NCBI GenBank assembly: GCA_900318775.1
Contig: ONLY01000020.1
Span: 1-62,981, forward strand
From: an uncultured Prevotellaceae bacterium
Lineage (GTDB): Bacteria > Bacteroidota > Bacteroidia > Bacteroidales > Bacteroidaceae
Length of the DNA: 62,981 nt
Direction of reading: 5' to 3'
Of the stretch, positions 4,237 to 16,733 are shown piece after piece (positions within the stretch are counted from its first letter, which is position 1; each line of letters begins with the position of its first letter). A program made the position numbers and the translations under genes. Under the pieces are notes generated by a model, which made no database searches, was not told the origin of the DNA, and worked only from the letters and a program-made list of their open reading frames with translations.

Positions 4237-5844
4237 ATGGAAGGGCTATCTAAATCACGTTACACCGCTTTCTGCCAGTGCCCCAAGAACTTGTGGCTGA
4301 AGGTGTTCAAACCTGAAGAGGCAACAGTGGATGCTGGTGTGGAAGCACGTTTTGAGAGCGGCAATGAAGTGGGCGATTTGGCTATGGGTCTCTTTGGTGA
4401 TTACAAGGAAGCTCATGCCGAAAAGCCTGATGGTGGTCTTGACCTCGCAAAGATGGTGGAACAGACCCGCCAGTGGATGCAGGATGGCGTAGAGAACATC
4501 TGCGAGGCATCGTTTACCTACGACAGGGAGCATGTTGTGGAGAATGTGACATTACCGCCAGATAAGCCTTGGTTTACAAAATGGACAGAGTCGCATTATT
4601 GTGCTGTAGATATTCTGCGCAAGAACGGTGATGGATGGGACATCTACGAGGTGAAAAGCACCAGCTTCCCTGAGTTCAACGGAAATGAGGCGAAGTTGGA
4701 GAAGTATGCTCCCGACATCGCTTATCAGAAATGGGTGTTGAAGAAGTGTGGCGTCAAGGTGACGGGCACTTATCTGGTCTGTCTGAACAGCGATTATGTG
4801 CGACAGGGTGATCTTGACCTTCAACAACTTTTTGCTGTCATTGACATGAAAGAGTTGGTGGAGAATGAGTACACGAAAGTGTCGACACGTGTTCGTCGGG
4901 CAACCCGACTGCTTGCTAAGGAACAGGAACCCGAAATGGAACTTTCAGAACATTGCATGAAGCCTTATGCTTGTGCTTTCTGGAACTACTGCAAGCGTCA
5001 ACATGGTGTGTCTTCGCCTTCTGTGTTCGACATCTATGGTGGCAAAGGACGTGGCGGTTTCACTTTTAACAAGAAACTTGATTGCTATCATCAGGGGCTT
5101 GTCACGTTTGAGGATTTGCGCCAGAATGATATCGGTCTCATTCAGAATATGCAGATAGAGGCTGCTTTGACTGGTAAGGTGTTTATCAATCCCGATGGCA
5201 TACGTAAATTCCTTGAAAAACTGACCTATCCGCTCTACTTTCTCGACTTCGAGACGATGCAGGATGCTGTGCCGCAGTATGATGGGGCAAAGGTTTACGG
5301 ACAAATCACTTTCCAGTATTCCCTGCATATCAAGGAGAGCGAGACAGCTAAGTATGAGCATCGTGAGTTTCTGGCTCCAAGCAACGGCAGCGACCCTCGT
5401 CGTCCTTTAGCGGAACAACTCTGCAAGGACATCCCTAAGAATGTCTGCACGTTGGCATATAATAAGATGTTCGAGTGTGGACGCATCCGCGAGTTAGCTG
5501 CTTTGTATCCCGACCTTGCCCCGCATCTGTTGAATATCGCAGACCACATCGTTGACCTCATCGACCCCTTCCGAGCTGGCGACTATTATGTTCCAGCTAT
5601 GGGTGGTTCGTTCTCCATTAAGAGTGTGTTGCCAGCCCTCTTCCCTGATGAGCCGAGCCTCAACTATCACAACCTCGATGAGCGCTGCCAAAATGGAGGT
5701 GATGCAATGACCATCTTTCCTCGCATCAAAGATATGGAACCAGAAGAGGCCGCTGCCAGTCGTGAAGCCCTCCTCCGCTACTGTGAACTCGACACCTGGG
5801 CAATGGTGAAGGTGTGGGAGAAATTGAAAGAAATGGCCAAATAG
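4237..5844 (+). CDS. DUF2779 domain protein, putative nuclease
   Basis: A 535-residue two-domain protein. The N-terminal part begins SKSRYTAFCQCPKNLWL, the signature of RecB/Cas4-like PD-(D/E)XK relatives, and has candidate catalytic residues D125, E138 and K140 (IYEVKSTS). The C-terminal DUF2779 part has FLDFET (D337, E339) and late acidic residues (LRYCELDTWAMVKVW), the pattern of DEDD/RNase H-like 3'-5' exonucleases. Two nuclease folds in one chain suggest DNA or RNA processing; the true substrate is unknown. It is the first gene of the accessory island and has a canonical promoter. Its stop codon abuts the first copy of the shared promoter element, and its last 138 bases are duplicated at 7332-7469. 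Confidence 0.85.
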   Translation: MEGLSKSRYTAFCQCPKNLWLKVFKPEEATVDAGVEARFESGNEVGDLAMGLFGDYKEAHAEKPDGGLDLAKMVEQTRQWMQDGVENICEASFTYDREHVVENVTLPPDKPWFTKWTESHYCAVDILRKNGDGWDIYEVKSTSFPEFNGNEAKLEKYAPDIAYQKWVLKKCGVKVTGTYLVCLNSDYVRQGDLDLQQLFAVIDMKELVENEYTKVSTRVRRATRLLAKEQEPEMELSEHCMKPYACAFWNYCKRQHGVSSPSVFDIYGGKGRGGFTFNKKLDCYHQGLVTFEDLRQNDIGLIQNMQIEAALTGKVFINPDGIRKFLEKLTYPLYFLDFETMQDAVPQYDGAKVYGQITFQYSLHIKESETAKYEHREFLAPSNGSDPRRPLAEQLCKDIPKNVCTLAYNKMFECGRIRELAALYPDLAPHLLNIADHIVDLIDPFRAGDYYVPAMGGSFSIKSVLPALFPDEPSLNYHNLDERCQNGGDAMTIFPRIKDMEPEEAAASREALLRYCELDTWAMVKVWEKLKEMAK

Positions 5845-5875
5845 TTTGAATTTTTCAAGCGAAGTGACTATATTA
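5845..5875 (+). promoter_or_regulatory. Shared island promoter element, copy A
   Basis: TTTGAATTTTTC, seven bases, GTGACTATATTA. TTTG lies 20 bases before TATATTA, the normal -33/-7 spacing, but the -7 is TATATTA rather than TAnnTTTG. It starts directly after the DUF2779 stop codon and ends 26 bases before the next ATG. Confidence 0.8.
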
Positions 5876-5901
5876 TTACCACCCCCTAATACAACACAAT
5901 T

Positions 5902-6273
5902 ATGGAAAGTATTGATCCTCAAAAGTATTTTGAACTTCAAGAGAAGCTACAACAAGAAGCCAAAGCTGAAGCTATTGCACTATTGCGTGACAAGGTTGAA
6001 AATCATGCCATTGTTATAGATGACATTGATAAGCAGATTAGTGACCATGATTGGATTGTAACTAAAGTCGGCAATATTCATATTGTTCTTTATGCATACG
6101 GGGTGAATAAATATGGCAAACTATGTTTCAAAGCATTTTATCAGGTTACTAGAGAGGATTATAAAGAAGGAGAGTGGTGCATGTTTGAAGAATACGGCAT
6201 CAACAACCTTTATTGCGAAGTGTATGAAATCATTGCCGAACATATCATAGCAAATCAAGATGCTCAAGAGTAA
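5902..6273 (+). CDS. Hypothetical protein, 123 residues
   Basis: No family recognised. An acidic cytosolic protein with a charged amphipathic N-terminal helix (about residues 8-45, rich in E, A, Q and K) followed by a compact alpha/beta part with strands around IVTKVGNIHIVLYAYG and KLCFKAFYQV. No signal peptide or membrane segment. Driven by element copy A. Size and fold pattern resemble the many small accessory or immunity-type proteins found in such islands, but nothing in the sequence assigns a function. Confidence 0.7.
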   Translation: MESIDPQKYFELQEKLQQEAKAEAIALLRDKVENHAIVIDDIDKQISDHDWIVTKVGNIHIVLYAYGVNKYGKLCFKAFYQVTREDYKEGEWCMFEEYGINNLYCEVYEIIAEHIIANQDAQE

Positions 6274-6300
6274 ATAAAGTCAAAGTGTTGTCAAAACAAT

Positions 6301-6328
6301 TTAAAACCTCGCGATGTATAGGGAATCG
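6301..6328 (+). repeat. Second shared upstream element, copy 1
   Basis: TTAAAACCTCGCGA, one base, then GTATAGGGAATCG, ending 11 bases before the LRR gene. An almost identical copy precedes the gene at 7838. Possibly a promoter or leader of another class. Confidence 0.6.
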
Positions 6329-6339
6329 GTAAGTAAGTT

Positions 6340-7335
6340 ATGGCAAAGAAAAAAATGAAGATTGAGGTCATAAATGGTGTGGGGATTATTCCCCAAGATG
6401 CAAAGAAAATCCCCGAAGCAGCATTTCGTTACGACGAAAGTCTGACCAGTGTCACCATTCCGACATCAGTGGAGATAATTGGATGGATAGCTTTTGAGGG
6501 TTGTTCAAGTCTAAGTCGTATCAATATCCCTGAGTCGGTAAGAATTATCAGTTCTGAAGCTTTTTTCAATTGCTCAAAGTTAGAGGCAATTGTTATCCCC
6601 AAATCGGTCAAGACAATCGGTGAGAGAAATCCATGGCATGGCTGCTCATGCCTTCACAGCATAGAGGTTTCTTTAGAAAACGACACTTATGATTCAAGAA
6701 ACAATTGTAATGCTATCATAGAAACAAAAACTAACATTTTGTTGGCTGGATGCAAGACGACAAACATCCCAGATTCAGTAACAAGAATCGGAGATCTGGC
6801 CTTTGCTTATTGTATAGGTCTTACCAGTATCGTCATTCCCGAATCAGTAACAGAAATTGGGGAATGGGCATTCGCGGGCTGTACAGGACTTACCAGTATC
6901 GTCATTCCCGAATCAGTAACAGAAATTGGGGCAGGTGCATTCAGAGGCTGTACAGGACTGACCAGTATTGTCATTCCCGAATCAGTAACAGTAATTAGGG
7001 AAGGTGCATTCGAAGGCTGTACAGGACTGACCAGTATTGTCATTCCCGAATCTGTAAATAGAATTGACCGTTATGCTTTTTCTAAATGCAGTGGTTTGAC
7101 ATCTGTTAACATACCAAACAGCGTAACAAGCATCGGGTATAGTGCGTTCGGGGGTTGTCGTGCGTTAAAGCATGTCTCTATCATGGGCTCTTTTGAGAAT
7201 TTCAATGTTTTTGATGTGTTCTACCTTTCTGATTCTCTGGAAACATTGACTTTGGGCGTGGGCGTCAAAAAAGTTACTGGAATTGAAACCGAAGACTTCC
7301 CATCCCTAAAAAGCGTCACTTATCTGAAGTCATGA
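6340..7335 (+). CDS. BspA-type leucine-rich repeat protein without signal peptide
   Basis: 331 residues of about twelve 23-residue LRR_5 (Treponema/BspA-type) repeats with consensus GLTSIVIPESVTEIG..AF.GC. LRR_5 proteins of Bacteroidetes are usually surface adhesins, but this one starts MAKKKMKIEVING and has no signal peptide, lipobox or sorting domain, so it is predicted to be cytoplasmic. The four central repeats (about 6814-7050) are nearly identical at DNA level in 69-bp units, a sign of recent expansion or contraction. The C-terminal repeats diverge into a capping region. It may act as a recognition or scaffold module for its neighbours, but that is inference. Its stop overlaps the duplicated DUF2779 tail. 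Confidence 0.85.
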   Translation: MAKKKMKIEVINGVGIIPQDAKKIPEAAFRYDESLTSVTIPTSVEIIGWIAFEGCSSLSRINIPESVRIISSEAFFNCSKLEAIVIPKSVKTIGERNPWHGCSCLHSIEVSLENDTYDSRNNCNAIIETKTNILLAGCKTTNIPDSVTRIGDLAFAYCIGLTSIVIPESVTEIGEWAFAGCTGLTSIVIPESVTEIGAGAFRGCTGLTSIVIPESVTVIREGAFEGCTGLTSIVIPESVNRIDRYAFSKCSGLTSVNIPNSVTSIGYSAFGGCRALKHVSIMGSFENFNVFDVFYLSDSLETLTLGVGVKKVTGIETEDFPSLKSVTYLKS

Positions 7336-7469
7336 CTCTCTTCCCACGCATCAAAGATATGGAACCAGAAGAGGCCGCTGCCAGTCGTGAAGCTCTGCTC
7401 CGTTACTGCGAACTCGACACCTGGGCGATGGTGAAGGTGTGGGAGAAATTGAAAGAAATGGCCAAATAG
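7332..7469 (+). pseudogene. Duplicated 3' end of the DUF2779 gene
   Basis: These 138 bases encode 45 residues (MTLFPRIKDMEPEEAAASRE onwards to EKLKEMAK and stop) that match the last 45 residues of the protein at 4237-5844 almost exactly, with a handful of mostly silent changes. The similarity continues through the stop codon into a full copy of the shared promoter element. The rest of the gene is absent, so this is a fragment. An in-frame ATG overlaps the LRR stop, but translation as a functional peptide is doubtful. Confidence 0.9.
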
Positions 7470-7500
7470 TTTGAATTTTTCAAGCGAAGTGACTATATTA
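7470..7500 (+). promoter_or_regulatory. Shared island promoter element, copy B
   Basis: Identical over all 31 bases to copy A, duplicated together with the DUF2779 3' end. It ends 22 bases before the ATG of the 82-residue gene. Confidence 0.8.
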
Positions 7501-7522
7501 GGTCTCAACCAAATGAAATAAG

Positions 7523-7771
7523 ATGGAAAAAACTTATAACATCAACGGAACAAGTTATACGGTAAACGAGCTTATTGCCATTATGCGTGAGCAACTGCCC
7601 GGCCTTAAGAAGTATTCTCATTTCGCAGATGCAGAAATAGAGTTTTGTCGACAGAACAAAGAAGGTGCCCTCTTCTTTTATGTCTCTAATGACAATGGAG
7701 AGGATATGATGGTTAAAATTGGCCCTGAAGAGACAATCTATTGGGATTGGACCGGCCAGGTTCTGGACTAA
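7523..7771 (+). CDS. Hypothetical protein, 82 residues
   Basis: No family recognised. A small acidic soluble protein (MEKTYNINGTSYTVNELI...) with a helix after the initial beta hairpin and a C-terminal strand pair around GALFFYVSNDNGEDMMVKIGP. First gene after element copy B, probably cotranscribed with the two genes downstream (66-bp and 37-bp gaps). Confidence 0.7.
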   Translation: MEKTYNINGTSYTVNELIAIMREQLPGLKKYSHFADAEIEFCRQNKEGALFFYVSNDNGEDMMVKIGPEETIYWDWTGQVLD

Positions 7772-7796
7772 TATCAAAGGAAACAATCAAAATGAA

Positions 7797-7824
7797 ATTA
7801 AAACCTCGCGAAGTATAGGGAATC
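7797..7824 (+). repeat. Second shared upstream element, copy 2
   Basis: ATTAAAACCTCGCGA, one base, GTATAGGGAATCG, 13 bases before the 63-residue gene. It differs from copy 1 at only about three positions, while the flanking sequence is unrelated. Confidence 0.6.
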
Positions 7825-7837
7825 GTGGAAAAAAGTT

Positions 7838-8029
7838 ATGACACAGATAAAGTTTTTCATGTATAGGACTCCTGATATGGAGGCATTTGAAAAGAAAGTA
7901 AATGACTTCCTTAAAGATAATGAGGGCAAAATCCAAGTACGCGATATAAAGTATACCGCAGAATCCCCGAATCCCAACGATTCAGTATTGAAGAATTGGA
8001 CTGCTATGGTGATATACGAAACCAAATGA
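7838..8029 (+). CDS. Cse60-like small protein
   Basis: 63 residues resembling the Cse60 family (named for a Bacillus sporulation protein): a hydrophobic first strand IKFFMY, a charged helix with EKKVNDFLKD, a second strand VRDIKYTAES and a final strand WTAMVIYE. Members are small ferredoxin-like proteins found in mobile and accessory regions of many phyla, with no known biochemical role. The match is to pattern and length, from memory. Confidence 0.6.
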   Translation: MTQIKFFMYRTPDMEAFEKKVNDFLKDNEGKIQVRDIKYTAESPNPNDSVLKNWTAMVIYETK

Positions 8030-8066
8030 ATCATGTTACGGAATCTCTTATTAGGACAGAAACATT

Positions 8067-9254
8067 ATGAAGAATTTCTTTAATGCTATTGGTGTTGCAG
8101 ATATGGAAAAAGTCCATTCTGCTATGATTGCGTGGATTCTCGATAATGAGAATGATACAACGTTTTCTGCTAATCAAGGTGGAGTAAATAGTCTGTTCTC
8201 GACATTTCCGATAGCTGAACGTTCAGCATTATTATGTGGGATGTTTCATGAGAATCAAAGAGTATTTAAGTCCATCAAAACTCATGTTGAATGGAATGAT
8301 ATTGATATCATGATAGAGACAGAAGATGGTAATGGACAGAAAGAAATATGGGTGATAGAGAACAAGCTCAAATCTCAAGAACATAAGTCGAATGTTAGTT
8401 CTGATGAAAAGCAGAAGTGGAATATAAACGCAGATGAAATATGGCAAACAGAAAAGTACGAGCACATAATATGTGACAATTTCCCCAATGATTCCCACCA
8501 TTATTTGCTTTTATCATTAGGAGGAGATGTGGCAAATAGCAGTAGCAGATGTTGGAAATCGTATACTTATTCTGAATTGAAAGATCTGTTGAGCTATATG
8601 AACCCTAAGAGTTTCGTTCTCATAAAGGAATACACAGATGCCATCAGTAAAATGACTGTAGAGTTGAAGACATTCTTGAATTCTGGAAATAACATAAGTA
8701 AGTATCCACATGTATTCCAAAAGCTAACGAAGTCAAAAGCATCAAATGCCAATATAACACCTGAAGAAAAATATATTGTTGAGAATCGGTTGGAAACTAT
8801 TTTCCAAAAACAATTTCTGGCAATGATAGTTAATAATTATATTCCGACAATTGCAAGCATTGTGAGATATGACGAGAGGAATGGAATAGCAATGTTTATA
8901 GAACCAATAAAAGATATTGGTGATTACTCGCTAAGCATAGAATTTCAAGGTGGAACTTTCAAAGTGGTTTTGCTTCACAAAGATTATATTAAAAGTAACA
9001 GTTATGTGTATACTAAGCCATTATATGATAAAAATGGTAAAGTGTATCCTGAATTTGTAAAGCTTGCAAAAAATGAATGGGGAATAGCAAAGGCAAAGAA
9101 TCTTAAAACAGGCAAAGCGAAGCCAAGAATCGCTTTAGACAAGAGTATGGGTGGAAAATTGTATTGTAATTTACAAAACAATAACTTCTTGACAATATAT
9201 AAAGAAGCGAAAGACATCGCAAAGATCATTAGCTCCATCCCATCAATTCCATAA
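8067..9254 (+). CDS. PD-(D/E)XK nuclease superfamily protein (PDDEXK_4-like)
   Basis: 395 residues. The N-terminal domain has the nuclease signature: an early helix with AWILDNENDTTF, then D78/D80 (DIDIMIE) and E98-x-K100 in VIENKLKS, matching the PDDEXK_4 family, whose members are often stand-alone and uncharacterised. The C-terminal half (from about residue 220) is alpha/beta without a recognised domain. Lysine- and asparagine-rich, and more AT-rich than the MoxR-VWA part of the island, which suggests a separate origin. Likely a DNA-cleaving effector or a degenerate nuclease; target unknown. Confidence 0.75.
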   Translation: MKNFFNAIGVADMEKVHSAMIAWILDNENDTTFSANQGGVNSLFSTFPIAERSALLCGMFHENQRVFKSIKTHVEWNDIDIMIETEDGNGQKEIWVIENKLKSQEHKSNVSSDEKQKWNINADEIWQTEKYEHIICDNFPNDSHHYLLLSLGGDVANSSSRCWKSYTYSELKDLLSYMNPKSFVLIKEYTDAISKMTVELKTFLNSGNNISKYPHVFQKLTKSKASNANITPEEKYIVENRLETIFQKQFLAMIVNNYIPTIASIVRYDERNGIAMFIEPIKDIGDYSLSIEFQGGTFKVVLLHKDYIKSNSYVYTKPLYDKNGKVYPEFVKLAKNEWGIAKAKNLKTGKAKPRIALDKSMGGKLYCNLQNNNFLTIYKEAKDIAKIISSIPSIP

Positions 9255-9277
9255 ATAGTTCATTTAGTATTATGCCT

Positions 9278-9308
9278 ATTGAATTTTTCTCCCCATGTTA
9301 CTATATTA
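9278..9308 (+). promoter_or_regulatory. Shared island promoter element, copy C
   Basis: ATTGAATTTTTC, seven bases, GTTACTATATTA. The most diverged 5' half of the set but with intact TATATTA. It ends 28 bases before the 44-residue ORF. Confidence 0.75.
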
Positions 9309-9336
9309 CCCATACAAACAATAGAATTGAAGAGAT

Positions 9337-9471
9337 ATGGAACAAAGTTTAGATGTAATTCTTGCTGAGATTGATCGCACACCGTTGTTGAGTCACGAGG
9401 AAGAATTGGATTTGCTGATAGTCGATGGACTTTTGGCAACGGATAGTAAAATAAATGCTGCTAATCTTTGA
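9337..9471 (+). CDS. 44-residue protein resembling sigma-70 region 1.2
   Basis: MEQSLDVILAEIDRTPLLSH followed by EEELDLLIVDGLLATDSKIN and AANL. The core (L-x-E-I-x-R-T-P-L-L-S-x-E-E-E) closely follows the region 1.2 motif of primary sigma factors, where YLxEIGRxPLLTxEEE leads into region 2. Regions 2-4 are absent, so it cannot be a sigma factor by itself. It has its own copy of the shared promoter (C), and copy D overlaps its stop codon. It could be a remnant, or a peptide that mimics sigma to modulate RNA polymerase. The motif match is by eye. Confidence 0.55.
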   Translation: MEQSLDVILAEIDRTPLLSHEEELDLLIVDGLLATDSKINAANL

Positions 9472-9497
9472 ATTTTTCTGGCAAAGTGACTATATTA
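9467..9497 (+). promoter_or_regulatory. Shared island promoter element, copy D
   Basis: TTTGAATTTTTC, seven bases, GTGACTATATTA. Its first bases include the TGA stop of the 44-residue ORF. It ends 25 bases before the next ATG. Confidence 0.8.
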
Positions 9498-9522
9498 GAA
9501 AAGAATCAAAGAAGTATTGGAT

Positions 9523-9918
9523 ATGAATAATGCTAAAGAGCCAACGAAATTCCTTTGGAGTCGTACATACATTCTGAAAAAGAAAGGTGAACCAGATCGT
9601 TTCTTTGAGGTGAAGAAACGTGTGGGTGATATGCTTTTCGTTGAGTTGAAAGAAAAGGGCAATCGCCAACAGCTAGTAGGACGTATCTTTGTTCCAGAAG
9701 GCGAAAACCGTGAGGTATGTGGTTTTGACTGGAATGATGAATTTGTCTTCATTGTTGCCGATTACTATATCTCCCGTGGTTACAAAGGGCGCCACATTGA
9801 AAATCATGAACCTCAGGTTCTTGTCGGAAATGAATGGGTGGACCATACCAAATACAGAGAAGCCATAAGACGTATGGATGAACGTTTCCTGAATGGCCTC
9901 ATTACGGACGAAGAATAA
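9523..9918 (+). CDS. Hypothetical protein, 131 residues
   Basis: No family recognised. A basic, mostly beta protein in its first half (FLWSRTYILKKKGEPDRFFE, FVELKEKG, LVGRIFVPEG) with a C-terminal helix REAIRRMDERFLNGL. ATG 9523 is preferred over an in-frame TTG six bases upstream because it fits the element-to-start spacing of its neighbours. Soluble. Followed by a stretch that looks like a degraded small gene. Confidence 0.7.
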   Translation: MNNAKEPTKFLWSRTYILKKKGEPDRFFEVKKRVGDMLFVELKEKGNRQQLVGRIFVPEGENREVCGFDWNDEFVFIVADYYISRGYKGRHIENHEPQVLVGNEWVDHTKYREAIRRMDERFLNGLITDEE

Positions 9919-9961
9919 AAAACATTTCCTCCATTTTGCATGGAGCAACCATATGATATCA

Positions 9962-10196
9962 ATGACACAAGAGCAAATGCGACAGAAGGCGAGTGAAGCC
10001 CGTAGGGAGGCGAAGGCGTTGCAGAAGAAAATGCAGACGGTAATCATGCCATTATGCCTAAAATGTGGCGTAAAGAAGACTTCCAACGACTACTTGATCA
10101 CATCGATGCCCATCCCGAACTTTTTAGCGGATTACGTATCCGGCAGATCTAATGCCAAAGGAGAAGTATATGAAAGAAATTGCGGGGTGGTTTTAA
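9962..10196 (+). pseudogene. Probable degraded small gene (three frame segments)
   Basis: Three protein-like segments lie end to end in different frames: MTQEQMRQKASEARREAKAL (frame of 9962), then MWRKEDFQRLLDHIDAHPEL continuing FSGLRIRQI (frame of 10063), then MPKEKYMKEIAGWF ending in a TAA at 10194-10196. That TAA overlaps the next promoter element, exactly as intact genes do elsewhere in the island, which suggests it is the original stop. Two frameshifts would join the pieces into one gene of about 75 codons. A continuous frame 9893-10213 also exists but looks unlike a protein after residue 50. No family recognised. Confidence 0.4.
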
Positions 10197-10221
10197 TTTT
10201 TCTTCGAGAGTGACTATATTA
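10191..10221 (+). promoter_or_regulatory. Shared island promoter element, copy E
   Basis: TTTTAATTTTTC, seven bases, GTGACTATATTA. The G of TTTG is changed to T. It ends 39 bases before the next ATG, the longest spacing of the set. Confidence 0.75.
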
Positions 10222-10260
10222 TAATAATCGGACAAATAAACAACATAACACATTTTCACT

Positions 10261-11148
10261 ATGAGCGAAGGTCATGGAACAACCCTCAAGCTGAAACATC
10301 ATGGGGACTTAGAGAAAGTTGCAGCGTACGTGAAACAGCAAGTGCGTGAAAAAAGTATAGAACAGGTAGGAATAGACCTTTCGGAAAGGAAAGGAGATGA
10401 CCTCGTCGGTCTTTCGATTGATGAGGAGAAAAGCTGCATTTATTGGGACGACTATGGACACCACGGAGACCATCTTGACTTCCATTCCATAGCGGAATGC
10501 GTTATTAAAGTGTTTCCCGAGGTAGAGATGGAACGGCAGGACGATTATGGGCAAAGTGTGTGGAACTATGTCATAGCCGATGGCAAATGGCAGGAATATA
10601 CGCTTTGGAAGTTTGTCGCTTATATCGACGGAAAGGGTGAAGAGGTTCAGTTGGAGTACAGGGAACCGAAAGACGGACGGAGCGAGGAAGAAAGACATGA
10701 AGAACGCGACAAGATGTGCAAGGAAATGGCAGAGCGCCTCAGCCGGTTACATCCTGGCATGGAGATTGCTGTATATGCCTATGATTGGTATATAATTTAC
10801 ACGATTGTCGATGAGTTCTATAGGGCCAAAGACGGTTGCGCCGTTAAAGAATGGGTGGATCGCGGATTGTCGGGAATAATGCCCTACTTCGACGTATTGG
10901 AGTGGGTTGAGTGCATAGGTCATGTGCTTCTTCATCCTATGGAATTTGCAACTGAACTCATTAAACAAGCACGTGAGGGCGATTGTTTATGTCAGAATAT
11001 TGCTATCGACATACTGGAGTGCGATGATGTAGCAAGTCTGATAGGACCCGCTGACAAGGAATGGCTGATGGAATTGATTGAGGAGCGCAGGTTAAAACGC
11101 GAAGAAGACTGGGGCAGTGAGAATGATGACGATGAGCTGCCACGTTAA
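10261..11148 (+). CDS. Hypothetical protein, 295 residues
   Basis: No family recognised. A very acidic soluble protein (final residues EERRLKREEDWGSENDDDEL). The N-terminal part (1-130) has alternating strands and a conserved-looking DDYGHHGDHLDFHS patch rich in His and Asp. The middle (130-170) is a charged helix. The C-terminal part (residues 200-290) has short helical repeats (ATELIKQAREGDCLCQNIAIDI) like HEAT or other helical-repeat proteins. Monocistronic under element copy E. Confidence 0.7.
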   Translation: MSEGHGTTLKLKHHGDLEKVAAYVKQQVREKSIEQVGIDLSERKGDDLVGLSIDEEKSCIYWDDYGHHGDHLDFHSIAECVIKVFPEVEMERQDDYGQSVWNYVIADGKWQEYTLWKFVAYIDGKGEEVQLEYREPKDGRSEEERHEERDKMCKEMAERLSRLHPGMEIAVYAYDWYIIYTIVDEFYRAKDGCAVKEWVDRGLSGIMPYFDVLEWVECIGHVLLHPMEFATELIKQAREGDCLCQNIAIDILECDDVASLIGPADKEWLMELIEERRLKREEDWGSENDDDELPR

Positions 11149-11172
11149 GAGTAACTAAATTGATCTCTGTAT

Positions 11173-11202
11173 TTTGAATTTTCTCGGAAAGTGACTATAT
11201 TA
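11173..11202 (+). promoter_or_regulatory. Shared island promoter element, copy F
   Basis: TTTGAATTTT, eight bases, GTGACTATATTA, one T shorter than the others. It drives the longest unit: leader ORF, MoxR, VWA and three further genes. Confidence 0.8.
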
Positions 11203-11227
11203 TTGTATAACGTTAAAACCAGACAAT

Positions 11228-11275
11228 ATGAACACAAACATTGAAAGACTGAGCCAGATGCTCAAAAGGCATTGA
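11228..11275 (+). CDS. Possible 15-residue leader peptide before the MoxR gene
   Basis: MNTNIERLSQMLKRH and stop, starting 25 bases after promoter copy F, the same spacing at which real genes start after other copies. It is 27 bases upstream of the MoxR ATG. Either a leader that couples translation or the remnant of a gene. Too short to prove. Confidence 0.3.
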   Translation: MNTNIERLSQMLKRH

Positions 11276-11302
11276 TTTCATTGAACAAAAATTATAGTTA
11301 TT

Positions 11303-12367
11303 ATGGCAATAGCAATCAACACCAAAGAGTTGGAGACTCTCTTGGAGGTGACTCCTTCGTGGCAGAACATCATGCTGGCAGGCCGACATGGCATCGGCAA
11401 GTCGCAAATTCTGACCAACTATTTTGAATCGAAAGGCATGCGTGTCATAGCCTTGTTCCTGGGACAGATGAGCGACCCTGGCGACCTGCTTGGTTTGCCC
11501 AACAAGGACGAGGCGACGGGCAAGACGACCTTCATGCCACCTTATTGGTTCCCTGTCGATGGACAACCTATTGTGTTGTTCCTTGATGAGCTGAACCGCG
11601 CCCGTCCGGAAATCTTACAAACGGTGATGGACCTCGTGCTAAACCGCAAGTTGGCAGGGCGTATGTTGCCAGAGGGAAGTCGCATCATCTCGGCTTGCAA
11701 CGACGGCGACGAGTACCAGTTGACTGACCTTGACCCAGCCCTCGTTTCGCGTTTCAACATCTACACTTTCCGCCCATCTGTGGAGGAATGGCTGCTGTGG
11801 GCAACTCGCAAGGGACTGGACGAGCGTGTCATCAACTTCATCCAAGCCAATCCCGAACTGCTTGACCGCAGCGGTGACACCAAAGAGGAACAGGGACTGG
11901 AGAAAGACCCCGACCGACGGGCTTGGGAGAAAGTGGCACGTGCGATGGAGAACATTCCCAATCCGATGCCTGTGCATCAGAAGATTATTGCAGGCATCGT
12001 GGGTGTACAGGCTGCTGCCAAGTTGTTCCTCTCGTTCCAGAAGGAACTCGTCACACCGCAGGAACTGCTCACCGACTTCAAGAGCGTAAAACGACAGCTG
12101 GACAAGTATCAGTTGCATCAGTTCTCATTGGTGAACGATGCCCTTTGCCGTTTCTTCGAGACCGACCAAGCTGATACGATGGAGCGCACACTGGTTCGCG
12201 AAAACCTGAAAGCCTATCACGATTATCTGGCCAAGAACCATCGCGAAGCATACGCCCACTTTGTGTCGCTCATCGACGGTACGGGCTACAAGCAGATGCT
12301 CTTGTTCATCAACAAGGAATTGCCTGAGACCTATAAGCAAATCATTGAGTTTATCCAGTCGCTATGA
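11303..12367 (+). CDS. MoxR-type AAA+ ATPase
   Basis: 354 residues with an AAA+ core of the MoxR/dynein-related class: Walker A GRHGIGKS (residues 27-34), Walker B VLFLDELNRA (about 91-99), sensor 1 SACN (about 130) and arginine finger SRF (about 150). The C-terminal helical lid and tail extend to residue 354. MoxR ATPases are chaperone-like and work with VWA-domain partners to remodel or insert cofactors into client complexes. The next gene is such a partner and overlaps it by four bases (ATGA), so the pair is translationally coupled. MoxR-VWA modules also form the core of predicted NTP-dependent conflict systems. Confidence 0.92.
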   Translation: MAIAINTKELETLLEVTPSWQNIMLAGRHGIGKSQILTNYFESKGMRVIALFLGQMSDPGDLLGLPNKDEATGKTTFMPPYWFPVDGQPIVLFLDELNRARPEILQTVMDLVLNRKLAGRMLPEGSRIISACNDGDEYQLTDLDPALVSRFNIYTFRPSVEEWLLWATRKGLDERVINFIQANPELLDRSGDTKEEQGLEKDPDRRAWEKVARAMENIPNPMPVHQKIIAGIVGVQAAAKLFLSFQKELVTPQELLTDFKSVKRQLDKYQLHQFSLVNDALCRFFETDQADTMERTLVRENLKAYHDYLAKNHREAYAHFVSLIDGTGYKQMLLFINKELPETYKQIIEFIQSL

Positions 12368-13827
12368 GTGCCCTCGAACGCATACAACAAGAGACGGAGC
12401 AGTGGTTTCTGACCGAACCGCTCTTCTTCACCGTCTATTGTTCGCACCGGCTGACCATCAATCCCAATATGTTGTGCGCCCTGCGTTCAGGACAAGGGCG
12501 TATTGAATACAACCCGGAACTGATCGGCCGGATGACCGACCATCAGTTGCGGGCCTTGCTGAGCGTGGAGATGATTCGCATTCTGCTGAAGCATCCCTAC
12601 TCCCGTCAGCCGCTGGGTTGTCCTGGCATAGTTCTGAAGATGGCGAGTGATATGGTCATTGCGCCTGCCTATAACCTGACTTGGGCAGGTCTGACACATC
12701 CCCACGATTTCGGTTTGCCCACAGGACAGCACTTCGAGTGGTATGCCAACCGACTGAGTGCAATGGGAATCCACATGGATGGACCAGCCCCCAGCGAAGG
12801 AGATTCCTGTGCTGATGGCGAGGCAGGTGAAGGCGGTGCATCTTCTTCATCTGAACCTTCTGAGAAGCAAGGTGAAGATTCGGCAGGTGGCAGCAGTGGC
12901 GAAAATAAAGAGCAAAACGAGCAGGGAGAGAATGCAGAAGGGGCATTGTCCGGTGGAGCAGATTCTGAAGAAAGTAACGAAAAAGCTGTGCCTATCGAAG
13001 GTCAGGGAGGAATGCCTTCCTCTGGCGAACAAGAAGCGGCAGGCGTAGGCGGCACTTCATCGTCATCTGGAAGCTCGCAGGCAACTCTCAATTCTCTTCC
13101 GCCTGCGCCTAAACGAAGCGAAGAACTCTCAACTCTCGACTCTGCCCCGTCTTCCGACTATACATCTTTGTGGGAAGAGGATGCCTTCATGGGTCAGCAG
13201 ATTACGGACATCATCCATAGCACCACGCAATGGGGAAGTCTGCCACTAAGCATGGTGGAACTCATCCGGAAAGCTGCCGAAGGTAAGATTGACTATCGTA
13301 ATGCCTTGCGTGCTTTCCGCAGTTCCATCCTATCGCAGAAACGTCATCTCACCCGCATGTATCCCAGCCGCCGCTTTGGTTTCGAGCAGATGGGTAGCCG
13401 CTATGAATTCACTACTCGCCTATTGGTGGCCATCGACACCAGTGGTTCGGTAGGTTCAGAAGAATTGGGACGCTACTATCGCATCATCACCACCTTCTTC
13501 AAATATGGCATTCAGGAGATTGATGTGCTGATGTTCGCTTTCGATGTACAGGGAGAACCCGTTACTCTGAAAGAGGCACAGAAGAACAAGCAGACATTTG
13601 AGGTGAAAGGGCGCGGCGGAACAAACTTCCAGGCTCCAATCAATTATGTGGCAGAGCACCCCGGCTATGACGGACTCATCATCATGACTGATGGTTATGC
13701 CCCCGTCCCCTCTGTGCCTGCCTTTCTGAAAACCAAACTTCTCTGGGTTATCGACAACGAGCTATCCTATAAACAACATTACGAATCGCTGCGCAAGACA
13801 GGTCGCGTCTGTCTGATGCAGCTGTAA
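12364..13827 (+). CDS. VWA-like protein of the DUF2201 type (MoxR partner)
   Basis: 487 residues. The N-terminal domain (1-140) resembles the putative metallopeptidase half of DUF2201, but the expected HExxH motif is eroded: SVEMIRILLKHP keeps the Glu and the last His and replaces the other two His. A low-complexity Ser/Glu/Gly-rich linker (about 141-265) follows. The C-terminal VWA domain carries the MIDAS signature DTSGSVG (about residue 356) and MTDGYAP (about 441). It likely binds metal-dependently to a client and recruits the upstream ATPase. Start overlaps the ATPase stop. Confidence 0.88.
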   Translation: MSALERIQQETEQWFLTEPLFFTVYCSHRLTINPNMLCALRSGQGRIEYNPELIGRMTDHQLRALLSVEMIRILLKHPYSRQPLGCPGIVLKMASDMVIAPAYNLTWAGLTHPHDFGLPTGQHFEWYANRLSAMGIHMDGPAPSEGDSCADGEAGEGGASSSSEPSEKQGEDSAGGSSGENKEQNEQGENAEGALSGGADSEESNEKAVPIEGQGGMPSSGEQEAAGVGGTSSSSGSSQATLNSLPPAPKRSEELSTLDSAPSSDYTSLWEEDAFMGQQITDIIHSTTQWGSLPLSMVELIRKAAEGKIDYRNALRAFRSSILSQKRHLTRMYPSRRFGFEQMGSRYEFTTRLLVAIDTSGSVGSEELGRYYRIITTFFKYGIQEIDVLMFAFDVQGEPVTLKEAQKNKQTFEVKGRGGTNFQAPINYVAEHPGYDGLIIMTDGYAPVPSVPAFLKTKLLWVIDNELSYKQHYESLRKTGRVCLMQL

Positions 13828-13868
13828 AAATGATAGATTTATTTGATTTGGTAAAATGAAGATAGTAA

Positions 13869-14699
13869 ATGAAGGAGTATAAAGCATATTGGAAGGATGG
13901 GCGGAAAAGGAACATAACATGGGAAGCAAAACTCGCCCGCTATCTTGAGCATCACACCCCACTCAAGAGCATCCGGCATGACCTTTTCAAAGCTTTTGAC
14001 GAAGGGCTTGATGACTACGAGCTTTATAAAAAAGCCGAAGAGGAATACTCGTTCTACGCCAAGGGATATAAACTTGCCATAATGGATGGTCTAAGTGCCG
14101 ATGACATTGACTTCAAGCTGTGGGACGATGCGATGATACCCCAAAAGTTGGAGCCTCTTATCCGCAAGTCCCCATATTTTAGTGTGGATTCTGCCATAAG
14201 TAGGGCACTGAAGCCTTGGATGAATGCTATCAAAAAGTTGATAGTGAATACCACACAGGCAAGCACAAGTACGGGTGATAAGCTTTTCACACCATGGCTT
14301 CGCGATTGGAGCGGAGATTATGTCGTTTCTCCAGAGGACTATGTCAAGGATGTTCTTCGCCCCTATCTGGACGAACAGGGATTACAGGATGCAAAAACCT
14401 ATGTGCATGAACGGGGAAATGCACTCATCGTCATTGAATATCAGGGATGCCAGTTACTGCTGAAAGAGTTTCTTTTTGCCAAGTCGCCGTACCAATGTTA
14501 TTTCTATCCATACTCAGATGAAAAAGATTCATTCTTCAATGCTACATATCCCGTATCCGATAACTACCATATTCCATTTAGTATGCTCACATTGAACGCC
14601 ATCGCCAAATATGTGAAACTGATGCCAAGATACAAAGATACAATTGACGACATGAAAGCAAAAGTAACAAAATCATACCAATCAATTAAAGGAGAATAA
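13869..14699 (+). CDS. Hypothetical protein, 276 residues
   Basis: No family recognised. A soluble, mixed-charge protein, helical in residues 1-130 with many aromatic residues (EEEYSFYAKGYKLAIMDGL) and alpha/beta afterwards (ALIVIEYQGCQLLLKEFLFA). It begins 41 bases after the VWA gene and ends 2 bases before the next ATG, so it belongs to the MoxR-VWA transcription unit. A client or specificity subunit of that pair is a reasonable guess only. Confidence 0.72.
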   Translation: MKEYKAYWKDGRKRNITWEAKLARYLEHHTPLKSIRHDLFKAFDEGLDDYELYKKAEEEYSFYAKGYKLAIMDGLSADDIDFKLWDDAMIPQKLEPLIRKSPYFSVDSAISRALKPWMNAIKKLIVNTTQASTSTGDKLFTPWLRDWSGDYVVSPEDYVKDVLRPYLDEQGLQDAKTYVHERGNALIVIEYQGCQLLLKEFLFAKSPYQCYFYPYSDEKDSFFNATYPVSDNYHIPFSMLTLNAIAKYVKLMPRYKDTIDDMKAKVTKSYQSIKGE

Positions 14700-14701
14700 T
14701 T

Positions 14702-15172
14702 ATGCCAAACATTTGCACAACCAATTATGTGATCGAGGGCAAGAAGGATGAACTCGATGCACTGTATCAGAAAATGAAGGAACTCCGGGGGCAAAGCCTC
14801 GGGCAGCTGGTTGAAGCTTTGGGTAAAGACCCAAATGAAGTGATGTGCCGCGGCGGATGGACTGAACTTGAACGCGAGGGTGATATCCTTCGTATGACTT
14901 TTGAAACGGCTTGGACACCTTGCTACGAAGTCACTCAGTTGATGAAAGCTGTTTATCCATCACTCCGCATCTACTACAAAGCCGAAGAGCCAGGTTGCGA
15001 AGTCTATCTCAAGAATGATGCCGATGGCAAGTACTTCCCTGAGACAGAAGCCGACGGACATGCGTTCGAGCTAATGACAGAAGAGCGTGAGCAACTGCAG
15101 ACCCGTCTCATTCGTGGCATTAAGGACGGCAGCATAGAAGTTAAGGTCAGCAAAGAAAATGACAAAGGCTGA
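14702..15172 (+). CDS. YubB/DUF1281-like ferredoxin-fold protein
   Basis: 156 residues. The start MPNICTTNYVIEGKKDELDA matches the opening of Api92/DUF1281-type proteins (M-x-N-x-C-x-x-x-Y), and FETAWTPCYEVTQLMKAVYP followed by IYYKAEEPGCEVYL fits the YubB ferredoxin-like C-terminal domain. Such proteins are common on plasmids, prophages and accessory islands; their role is unknown. A purine-rich AAAGGAG lies before the ATG. Overlaps the next gene by 14 bases. Confidence 0.7.
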   Translation: MPNICTTNYVIEGKKDELDALYQKMKELRGQSLGQLVEALGKDPNEVMCRGGWTELEREGDILRMTFETAWTPCYEVTQLMKAVYPSLRIYYKAEEPGCEVYLKNDADGKYFPETEADGHAFELMTEEREQLQTRLIRGIKDGSIEVKVSKENDKG

Positions 15173-15845
15173 ATTAGATAAAGTCATCGTCAGATCGTTC
15201 CCCATCTACGAACTGCTGCAGATTCGCATAGAGGGCCATCGGTACCCTCGCCGGCGAATCTGTCAGCAGCGGTTAGGTTTCTTTGACACGAAGGAACATG
15301 CCGAGGAAGCCATGCTTTCGACTATCGAGTTTCAGAAGAAAGTATGTAAGCAAAGAGAAAAGAATTACTATGATGACTGTTTTGGGTTCTTTCTGTTTGA
15401 GCAGTTTGTCCATAATAAGGAAAGCTCATTCTATCGGAACGAACGGCCTCAGAAATGCTTCTCTTTTAACGCAGATGGAGAACTTAATGACTTTGTCGCT
15501 TTAGACGAAATGGGATGGTATCGTGGTCGCAAGATAGAGGACATCCGCTTCAAAGTTGGCGACATCGTGGAGGTCGTAGATGGAAACTATTCAGATCTGG
15601 GCATCGTGGGAGCCCTTCCTCTGACTACTGACAAATACAGTCGGTTAGAAGAAGATCCCGATGAGTGTGAGCATCCAAGCCATTTTCTTGATGAGAGTGA
15701 CGACTGCTACCTCGTCTATACTCTTGGCGAAGCCGGTTCTCACATCCATCCTGTCTGCTACACAGTGTTTCCACCCACACATCCTGTTCCTGAGAGAATT
15801 GCAGCCCAGCTAAAGGCAAATCTGGAAGAAGTAGAAAAAAGTTAG
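15159..15845 (+). CDS. Hypothetical protein, 228 residues
   Basis: No family recognised. The first 110 residues have a basic strand-helix unit (QRLGFFDTKEHAEEAMLSTI), as in small RNA- or DNA-binding accessory proteins. Residues 125-165 (FKVGDIVEVVDGNYSDLGIV) look like an SH3/KOW-type beta barrel start, and the C-terminal part is rich in Asp, His and Cys (DPDECEHPSHFLDESDDCYL). Last gene of the MoxR-VWA unit, with start inside the preceding gene. The next promoter element begins 7 bases after the stop. Confidence 0.7.
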   Translation: MTKAELDKVIVRSFPIYELLQIRIEGHRYPRRRICQQRLGFFDTKEHAEEAMLSTIEFQKKVCKQREKNYYDDCFGFFLFEQFVHNKESSFYRNERPQKCFSFNADGELNDFVALDEMGWYRGRKIEDIRFKVGDIVEVVDGNYSDLGIVGALPLTTDKYSRLEEDPDECEHPSHFLDESDDCYLVYTLGEAGSHIHPVCYTVFPPTHPVPERIAAQLKANLEEVEKS

Positions 15846-15852
15846 GGCAATC

Positions 15853-15883
15853 TTTGAATTTTTCTGGTGATGTGACTATATTA
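15853..15883 (+). promoter_or_regulatory. Shared island promoter element, copy G
   Basis: TTTGAATTTTTC, seven bases, GTGACTATATTA, starting just after the preceding stop. It precedes a G-poor ORF that ends inside a terminator. Confidence 0.8.
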
Positions 15884-15910
15884 TGTTCGTAATATAAAAA
15901 AAGAAAGATT

Positions 15911-16126
15911 ATGAACACAACAATCATCACCACCAATTCAATCAACAAATTCAACCAACTTCTTAACTTCTTATATTCAAAAAAAATCTCTATTTTTCCC
16001 TCTCCCGCCACACTCTCTATCACCCTCTTCACTAACTCTTCTTCTCAAACAAACTCCATTCTTTCGAGGCTTACTAAACTTCTTAATCTCAAACCCATAC
16101 AGCCCTCATACGCTCTCACAGCGTAA
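15911..16126 (+). CDS. G-poor 71-codon ORF or non-coding transcript
   Basis: MNTTIITTNSINKFNQLLNF and onward: rich in Ser, Thr, Asn, Leu and Ile with no family match. The plus strand from 15911 to about 16100 contains fewer than ten G among some 190 bases, unlike every neighbour. The stop codon lies within the loop of the terminator at 16101-16136. The start is 27 bases after promoter copy G, the standard spacing. It may be a small translated protein, or a C- and U-rich unstructured RNA whose open frame is incidental. Confidence 0.4.
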   Translation: MNTTIITTNSINKFNQLLNFLYSKKISIFPSPATLSITLFTNSSSQTNSILSRLTKLLNLKPIQPSYALTA

Positions 16127-16136
16127 GGGGGCTTTT
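16101..16136 (+). terminator. Rho-independent terminator closing the G-poor transcript
   Basis: AGCCCTC pairs with GGGGGCT, with an inner ACGCT/AGCGT stem, then TTTTT. It separates promoter copy G from the gene at 16154, so part of the transcription from G should stop here. Confidence 0.8.
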
Positions 16137-16153
16137 TAAACTTTTCAACTTTT

Positions 16154-16540
16154 ATGAGACGCGGCATACCTATTATCAGTGATTATACAAGGGATTCCTT
16201 TATGGACCGGGTAAAACATCAAGAACTGCAGATTGGTGATGCGGTTTACTATCTCTCGCCCTTTTCGAGGTATTCTGTCAGGAAATCAACTATTGTCAAG
16301 AAGGGGCTCGTGCCAACGGACTTCCTTAAAGACATCGAACTGACGCTTGCTGACGGCACAGTGCTGCCATACCGCGAAGCCTTCGACTCGAAGGAAATGG
16401 CAATCGCATACATCGTTGACGACCTCAGATGCAGTCTGGCTAACCACCGTACAGGGCTTCAGACGCTTCTACGACAAATTGCGGAAGACGAGCGATTACT
16501 TGCGATGTTTGAAAAGAAGCAGAAAGAATTTATCAACTGA
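16154..16540 (+). CDS. Hypothetical protein, 128 residues
   Basis: No family recognised. After a basic start (MRRGIPIISDYTRDSF), residues 20-75 look like a small beta barrel (ELQIGDAVYYLSPF, RKSTIVKKGLVPTDFLKDIE, LTLADGTVLPYREAF). The C-terminal part is one helix ending KQKEFIN. It lies 18 bases beyond a terminator and depends on readthrough from promoter copy G or on an unseen promoter. Confidence 0.65.
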   Translation: MRRGIPIISDYTRDSFMDRVKHQELQIGDAVYYLSPFSRYSVRKSTIVKKGLVPTDFLKDIELTLADGTVLPYREAFDSKEMAIAYIVDDLRCSLANHRTGLQTLLRQIAEDERLLAMFEKKQKEFIN

Positions 16541-16600
16541 CGTTTGGTGTCATCAAACTTGACTGACATCGATCTTTGGTTGACTTGCGTCGAGCTAAAG

Positions 16601-16654
16601 CTTCACGTGTGAAAATGGCAAAGCTGACACGTGAAGTTTATCGACTTCACGTGT
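16601..16654 (+). repeat. Three CACGTG-containing arms able to form alternative hairpins
   Basis: CTTCACGTGT (16601-16610), ACACGTGAAG (16627-16636) and CTTCACGTGT again (16645-16654). The middle arm can pair with either side; the right-hand hairpin extends to 11 bp with a 6-base loop and is followed by ATTGTTTT. It sits between the 128-residue gene and promoter copy H. Probably a terminator, possibly with a switching arm or a protein-binding palindrome. Confidence 0.6.
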
Positions 16655-16702
16655 ATTGTTTTATAAAATAACGAGAATAAGCAAAAAAAGTTACCCTGAT
16701 TT

Positions 16703-16733
16703 TTTGAATTTTTTCTTGTTTGTGACCATATTA
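16703..16733 (+). promoter_or_regulatory. Shared island promoter element, copy H
   Basis: TTTGAATTTTTT, seven bases, GTGACCATATTA, ending 28 bases before the AAA+ ATPase gene. One T-to-C change inside GTGACT. Confidence 0.75.

Follow-up and report, generated by a model that had tools for sequence, protein, structure and literature searches.

In integrons, gene cassettes are exchanged between repeated elements, and attC folds as a single strand; the phage T4 protein gp55 is a partial sigma factor. For promoters of the Bacteroidota sigma-ABfr, a consensus of −33 TTTG and −7 TAnnTTTG has been published (PMC7366714); SigO-RsoA of Bacillus is a two-subunit sigma factor (PMC10141391), and one criterion for the recombinase-associated acquired interbacterial defence (rAID) arrays of Bacteroidales is that at least two genes in the same direction have a GC content under 41% (PMC12247911). 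Here we analyze a stretch of 62,981 nucleotides from an uncultured Prevotellaceae bacterium of the gut (contig ONLY01000020.1 of assembly GCA_900318775.1; the whole stretch is called the window below), in which a single island has a promoter-like element of 31 bases ahead of eight of its genes or groups of genes. We consider it probable that this element serves as promoter and operator at the head of every cassette in an exchangeable array, with swaps taking place within the shared header.

The element resembles sigma-ABfr promoters in having TTTG and a TA box, a spacing of 20 and a similar distance to the start codon, but differs from them in that its −7 box is mostly TATATTA, that AATTTTT and GTkwC are conserved within the spacer, and that the copies in its own genome are confined to the island. 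With rAID arrays the island shares, by description, variable co-oriented and often short genes together with a conserved intergenic motif; unlike them, it has a DUF2779 gene and an AAA ATPase gene as recurrent ends, a GC content reaching 55% and, on the island contigs searched, no tyrosine recombinase, as would be looked for upstream of a rAID array. Its GC content (in 500-bp windows) ranges from 33% to 55%, positions 7501-9500 being below 41% and much of the rest not. Pfam revealed no immunity domain, as would be sought for rAID orphan immunity proteins, in 17 island proteins and one neighbour, although distant ones could be missed. As with integron cassettes, exchange occurs between repeated elements, but neither an integrase on the island contigs searched nor a folded attC-like site among the window copies was found, and the element precedes each gene in the manner of a promoter. 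Finally, some related islands encode truncated sigma-like proteins (half-sigmas), which recall SigO-RsoA and gp55 in that sigma activity would be split or cut down to part of a sigma factor; judging from their sequences, they differ in being RpoD-like pieces of regions 1.2-2 with an altered core-binding face and no regular partner found.

Copies, conservation and geometry of the element

A search of the window for TTTGAATTTTTC-N7-GTGACTATATTA with at most 3 mismatches returned 8 matches, every one on the plus strand, compared with 0.00 expected from 100 dinucleotide shuffles, in agreement with the eight near-identical copies described in the initial annotation. The copies are (the match of the sixth falling at 11172/11173):

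5845-5875, plus strand: element copy 1, behind the stop codon of the DUF2779 gene; then a 123-aa gene at 5902-6273, its ATG 26 bp on
7470-7500, plus strand: element copy 2, with the spacer AAGCGAA as in copy 1, behind a duplicated DUF2779 3′ end; then a gene at 7523-7771
9278-9308, plus strand: element copy 3, with ATTG and GTTAC; the ATG 28 bp on opens a 44-aa sigma region 1.2 fragment
9467-9497, plus strand: element copy 4, with the spacer TGGCAAA; holds the stop of the 44-aa frame; then a gene at 9523-9918
10191-10221, plus strand: element copy 5, a TTTT variant; ATG 39 bp on, gene at 10261-11148
11173-11202, plus strand: element copy 6, 1 base shorter; a 15-codon remnant, then MoxR/VWA genes at 11303-13827
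15853-15883, plus strand: element copy 7, ahead of the 71-aa gene
16703-16733, plus strand: element copy 8 (GTGACCATATTA), ahead of the AAA ATPase gene

In order from copy 5845 to copy 16703, the frame that follows each element begins 26, 22, 28, 25, 39, 25, 27 and 28 bp behind it. The reported distance of 22-39 bases thus holds for all eight, although the frame behind 11173 is a 15-codon remnant, the real gene (for the MoxR-like ATPase, at 11303) beginning 100 bp downstream, and an earlier ATG behind 7470 and 16703 opens just a few codons. The spacing of 19 ascribed to the shorter 11173 copy was also found, as was the placement of elements on or right after stop codons: TAG directly precedes copies 5845 and 7470, and the stop of the preceding frame lies inside 9467 and 10191. 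The duplicated DUF2779 3′ end (7336-7500 compared with 5711-5875) is identical at 156 of 165 positions, the element counted in. A single exact GTGACTATATTA at 58784, which is without the 5′ half and lies within a 909-aa reading frame, appears to be there by chance. The pattern TTGAAT-N17-TATATT can also be read in five of the eight copies in the window.

Related loci were reached via the AAA ATPase of the island (best 80 of 81). By title they come from Prevotella, Prevotellaceae, Bacteroidaceae, Muribaculaceae or wider groups of Bacteroidota, 78 of the 80 being labelled metagenome bins or uncultured. The exceptions, Prevotella ruminicola KHT3 and Prevotella sp. ne3005, we take from their titles as cultured strains. 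A weight matrix of 31 columns derived from 41 copies detected, at a threshold of 13, 185 copies in 65 of these loci and none in one Markov shuffle per locus (best null score 7.3), which shows conservation of the element in related loci, a check suggested in the initial annotation. Of the copies, 29 come from six loci used to train the matrix, and the remaining 156 from 59 of the other 74 loci. The conserved parts are (T/A)TTGAATTTTT, GT(G/T)(A/T)C and TATATT(A/G), and the seven bases between vary. Across 42 non-redundant copies AATTTTT carries 1.3-1.7 bits and GTkwC 0.7-2.0, the 7-bp spacer between them 0.2-0.5; an A-tract and GTTGCC-like bases stand 5′ of many copies (0.2-0.7 bits per column). 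Variation is shared within loci, where core identity is 0.863; 500 rounds of shuffling the elements between loci gave 0.838 ± 0.005 and at most 0.853.

Rather than being frequent and randomly placed, the element is confined to the island in its own genome (2.62 Mb), where a profile built from 12 copies gave 8 strong matches, only in the island, and a next best of 13 bits (E 0.33). In a sample of the family, a match at E 0.1 or better was present in 43 of 251 genomes, own included (15 of them below 1e-3), and 393 order-level genomes (own and a few family members among them) yielded just two further single borderline matches. Three own-genus genomes carry homologous islands. Literature searches returned neither the element strings nor similar arrays among the matches listed. 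Two profile matches lie 5′ of rpoD (G259, G004), and in two of 33 rpoD loci element-like sequences stand 47 and 73 bp before rpoD, 5′ of its ordinary promoter (L073 ~8138, L074 ~8329); a common regulon with rpoD was dropped because the other 31 upstream regions, own included, are without a copy at fewer than 7 mismatches. An origin from phage was likewise dropped, since searches of viral contigs, by methods that detect just close relatives or exact matches, gave neither the element nor a half-sigma.

The element fits the published −33/−7 consensus except for the last bases of the −7 box. Among 150 copies of at least 20 bits, the −33 position reads TTTG in 121 and ATTG in 18, and the −7 box reads TATATTA, not TAnnTTTG, in 111. 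TTTG precedes TATATTA by N20 in 28 of 39 cases, and N20 is also the mode for local canonical promoters (in 928 upstream regions of the related loci TTTG-N20-TAnnTTTG occurs 35 times and the N19 form 22 times), which bears out the Bacteroidetes spacing assigned to the element earlier. The median distance from the −7 box to ATG is 30 for 65 canonical promoters, and that from the element to the start codon is 28 bp; an ATG reading frame begins 15-40 bp downstream of 68% of copies, compared with 13% of random positions. In some lineages a canonical TAnnTTTG box follows the operator half (8 of 177 matches). Overall, the element very probably serves as a promoter and carries additional conserved bases that resemble an operator; it would presumably drive transcription. 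The housekeeping sigma could read it, given a spacing equal to that of local ordinary promoters and the canonical −7 box behind 8 of the 177 operator-half matches. The term regulon island appears to be a fair description, given this geometry, the one island in this genome and the recurrence before island genes across related genera. On the other hand, the canonical promoter assigned to the DUF2779 gene is present in the window (TTTG-N21-TATCTTTG before 4237) but does not hold everywhere: among 25 DUF2779 upstream regions, one has the element (L146, G036) and one the element with a canonical −7 box (L188).

Cassette boundaries at several elements

What the initial annotation overlooked is that several elements, by comparison of sequences between loci, are also joints of exchanged cassettes. 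Breakpoints of homology lie at most 10 bp from an element in 41 of 409 cases, compared with 4.6 ± 2.6 after random shifts (maximum 20 in 1000), and they hit 35 of 174 elements as against 35 of 1034 matched controls located upstream of genes, a roughly sixfold difference. One such unit lies in the window:

7501-9277, plus strand: exchanged cassette, elements 2 to 3, with 82-aa and 63-aa genes and the PD-(D/E)XK protein (8067-9254)

In comparison with the genome G031, this cassette is identical at 1773 of 1777 positions, and its flanks at 111 of 134 positions 5′ of the left element and, behind the right one, at 23 of 28 (the leader) and then 45 of 130; in G031 the copy-3 element and this similar leader stand before an NT5C-like gene. 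At 9467, identity to G031 and to another genome, G040, is 44/130 and 45/130 upstream, 31/31 in the element and 489/493 and 486/493 downstream. An element of G040 (at 88) resembles window 10191 on its upstream side (81/87) and window 7470 in its spacer and downstream side (31/31, 39/39). The latter junction lies in the 5′ half of the element, the join at window 5845 probably in the 3′ half, and joins seem to use either half, that is, either side of the spacer; this agrees better with homology than with cutting at a single fixed site. Taken together, these comparisons, from which the out-of-register lines of G036 were left out, indicate that genes have been swapped at several element copies.

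Of 40 tyrosine recombinase matches (PF00589, eight genomes), none is located on a contig that bears a cluster of elements, some of these contigs being short. Serine recombinases were absent from three of four own-genus genomes, and in the fourth one lies on another contig than the island. An attC-like fold is absent in 8 of 8 window copies (~70 nt each), folding being no better than z −1.62. From the joins on either side of the spacer, the lack of a recombinase on the island contigs searched and the lack of a special fold, we infer that general (RecA-type) recombination at short homology, and not a special recombinase, makes the swaps.

In the mechanism that we propose, the 31-bp element would be the promoter of each island unit, with −33 TTTG and −7 TATATTA at housekeeping-sigma spacing, and the conserved AATTTTT and GT(G/T)(A/T)C would form a putative binding site for a dedicated regulator that all copies would share. 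Since every unit carries the same header, the latter would offer a short shared homology, inside which incoming or neighbouring units would recombine; whole cassettes would be gained, lost, duplicated or swapped, still under the same control. The repeat may be at once the common switch and the seam of an exchangeable gene array.

Half-sigmas and other genes of the island

The island in the window comprises the DUF2779 gene, several short genes, the PD-(D/E)XK protein, the MoxR/VWA pair, the 71-aa gene and the AAA ATPase gene. Apart from the elements and the cassette listed above, its features are:

4237-5844, plus strand: DUF2779 gene at the island head (E 1.6e-44), with a weak Cas4-like match in its first half (E 9.8e-6)
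9337-9471, plus strand: 44-aa sigma region 1.2-like fragment (Pfam Sigma70_r1_2, E 2.2e-4, 21.6 bits at a cut-off of 22); stop inside element 4
11303-13827, plus strand: AAA_5/MoxR-like ATPase and VWA-like DUF2201 protein
15911-16126, plus strand: 71-aa protein, ending in ALTA
16762-18432, plus strand: AAA ATPase with a distant likeness to IetA; its gene recurs at the tail of the islands

Half-sigmas, as found in some related islands, are RpoD-like proteins with regions 1.2-2, or 2 alone, and without 3-4. We counted 30 such frames in 22 of the 80 loci (two full RpoDs and one region-4 protein being left out), of which 13 begin 23-30 bp behind an element; 21 of the 22 loci have elements. Most are 69-128 aa long; in a few, the sigma part is joined to a preceding NT5C-like domain or runs into another domain (examples are L152:3053-3391, L055:4663-4887 and L216:7545-8333). 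Pfam recognized region 2 in four proteins of the first island set, one of them being an NT5C fusion also with region 1.2. The residues that we take to read the −10 box are mostly kept (F102 in 30, R111 in 29 and W108 in 24 of 31), and the presumed core-binding face is altered (D78 to E in 29 of 31, E82 to A, V or I in 31 of 31). Within the stretch examined, no half-sigma was found in 44 of 65 element loci nor in four own-genus islands, and the window retains just the 44-aa region 1.2-like piece. RpoD and half-sigma queries against the own genome (91% complete) found only RpoD, other sigma classes not having been searched. A search for a region 3/4 partner gave just two candidates, a protein in L196 and a match in L216 that is doubtful (E 0.05); the former (L196:19624-20673, 349 aa, with sigma region 4-like stretches) lies ~8 kb past the AAA gene. 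Half-sigmas may be modulators, decoys or passengers, and are unlikely to act as stand-alone sigma factors, since without region 4 the conserved TTTG would go unread.

The 71-aa family has 33 members behind elements (L140-L219), 28 of which end in LAA, an ending seen in none of 1157 unfiltered frames of at least 150 aa in the same loci. The own tmRNA tag is GETRYALAA, and the C-terminus of the family mostly matches this ssrA tag ending. The last codons of the gene lie in a strong RNA hairpin followed by U's; selection on the tail could act on RNA, protein or both, that on the protein alone being unproven because the same codons form the hairpin.

The PD-(D/E)XK protein (8067-9254) matches PDDEXK_4 (E 9.1e-8) and the PADLOC model PDC-S26 (E 2.2e-16). 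The AAA ATPase (16762-18432) matches the anti-phage protein IetA in PADLOC (E 3.1e-31), with an NCBIfam score (102 bits) far under the cut-off of 510. Just 5′ of the element of the AAA gene, a 12-pair hairpin (ACACGTGAAG...CTTCACGTGT) occupies window 16627-16654.

Alternative explanations and implications

Several observations weigh against a promoter-operator that doubles as a seam. No element was detected at the matrix threshold in 15 of the 80 loci; the next ATG lies inside the element in 9 of 185 copies; a reading frame follows within 150 bp of 164 of the 185, but also of 59% of random positions; and 179 of them lie on the strand of the AAA gene, a strand bias without a control. In 17 island proteins Pfam gave no clear match to a regulator that binds DNA (one is DnaT-like, E 0.022), other loci having had no systematic regulator search. 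With respect to seams, 368 of the 409 breakpoints lie away from elements; the counts are non-independent, each breakpoint being entered for both loci, and inflated, because the ends of BLAST matches often extend to the distal edge of an element that both loci share. Copies 15853 and 16703 form no seams in comparison with G040, nor upstream in comparison with G031. Moreover, nearly all loci are by title metagenome bins, where repeats can cause false joins, and the two genomes not so titled back the seam pattern only modestly, with ends at elements in 4 of 83 cases against 0.76 (44 of 1000 shifts as good) and in 6 of 99 against 0.45 (16 of 1000).

The latter point bears on the possibility that the cassette joins are assembly artefacts of such bins at repeated 31-mers. 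Truncated pieces at window elements (9337-9471, 7336-7469 and the 15 codons after 11202) would agree with this, as would a 20-base seed test, in which the joins at 5845 and 11173 (both sides) and those upstream of 7470 and 9467 appear in no other examined locus; however, the 9467 element with its downstream join recurs in the separate assemblies G031 and G040, and the trend is also seen in the two genomes without a bin title; we regard such artefacts as a very unlikely explanation of the joins. It appears highly improbable that the element serves site-specific recombination in the manner of integrons or rAID arrays, its promoter look being secondary: cassettes are indeed bounded by elements, and rAID arrays have conserved intergenic motifs (PMC12247911), but the recombinase searches argue against it (albeit an enzyme could act from elsewhere), as do the missing attC-like fold, the joins apparently on either side of the spacer, the regular distance to ATG and the canonical promoter spacing.

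The remaining alternatives concern control rather than exchange. Ordinary housekeeping promoters, alike just from recent cassette duplication or exchange and with no dedicated regulator, would account for the canonical spacing, for the occasional canonical −7 box and for the observed exchange at elements. Recent copying, however, leaves the contrast between AATTTTT/GTkwC and the spacer unexplained (a contrast that the choice of copies by core similarity favours), and the rest of the own genome is without the element; we regard this explanation as tentative and, on balance, unlikely. Direction of RNA polymerase to the element by the truncated half-sigma of the island, as a dedicated alternative sigma, seems quite unlikely. 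The position of many half-sigma frames closely behind elements, the elements in 21 of 22 of their loci and the preserved −10-reading positions are in its favour, but a sigma part that stops after region 2 leaves the conserved TTTG unreadable, the core-binding face is changed, a region 3/4 partner is missing except for the two candidates above, and most element loci, as well as the four own-genus islands, have no half-sigma in the stretch examined. The regulon idea of the initial annotation is partly supported. The dedicated regulator or alternative sigma factor that it suggested stays a hypothesis: the spacing is that of ordinary promoters, some operator halves have a canonical −7 box, and the sigma-like genes of related islands are truncated.

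A more far-reaching version of the promoter-operator array, to which we would give little chance, is a self-contained stress or infection circuit driving the exchangeable genes, in which the shared operator-promoter would be tuned by −10-reading half-sigmas and the ssrA-like tail of the 71-aa protein would report proteolytic or tmRNA load; if it were true, blocked translation would turn on every cassette, newly captured ones too. The analysis also reveals a family of RpoD pieces without the −35-reading half, and the element provides a sequence handle for finding such arrays. The proposed dual role of the promoter as a seam is testable because two hosts are not titled as metagenome bins. Overall, if a promoter doubled as a seam, bacteria of the rumen and gut could add foreign genes to a common regulatory circuit without an integrase.

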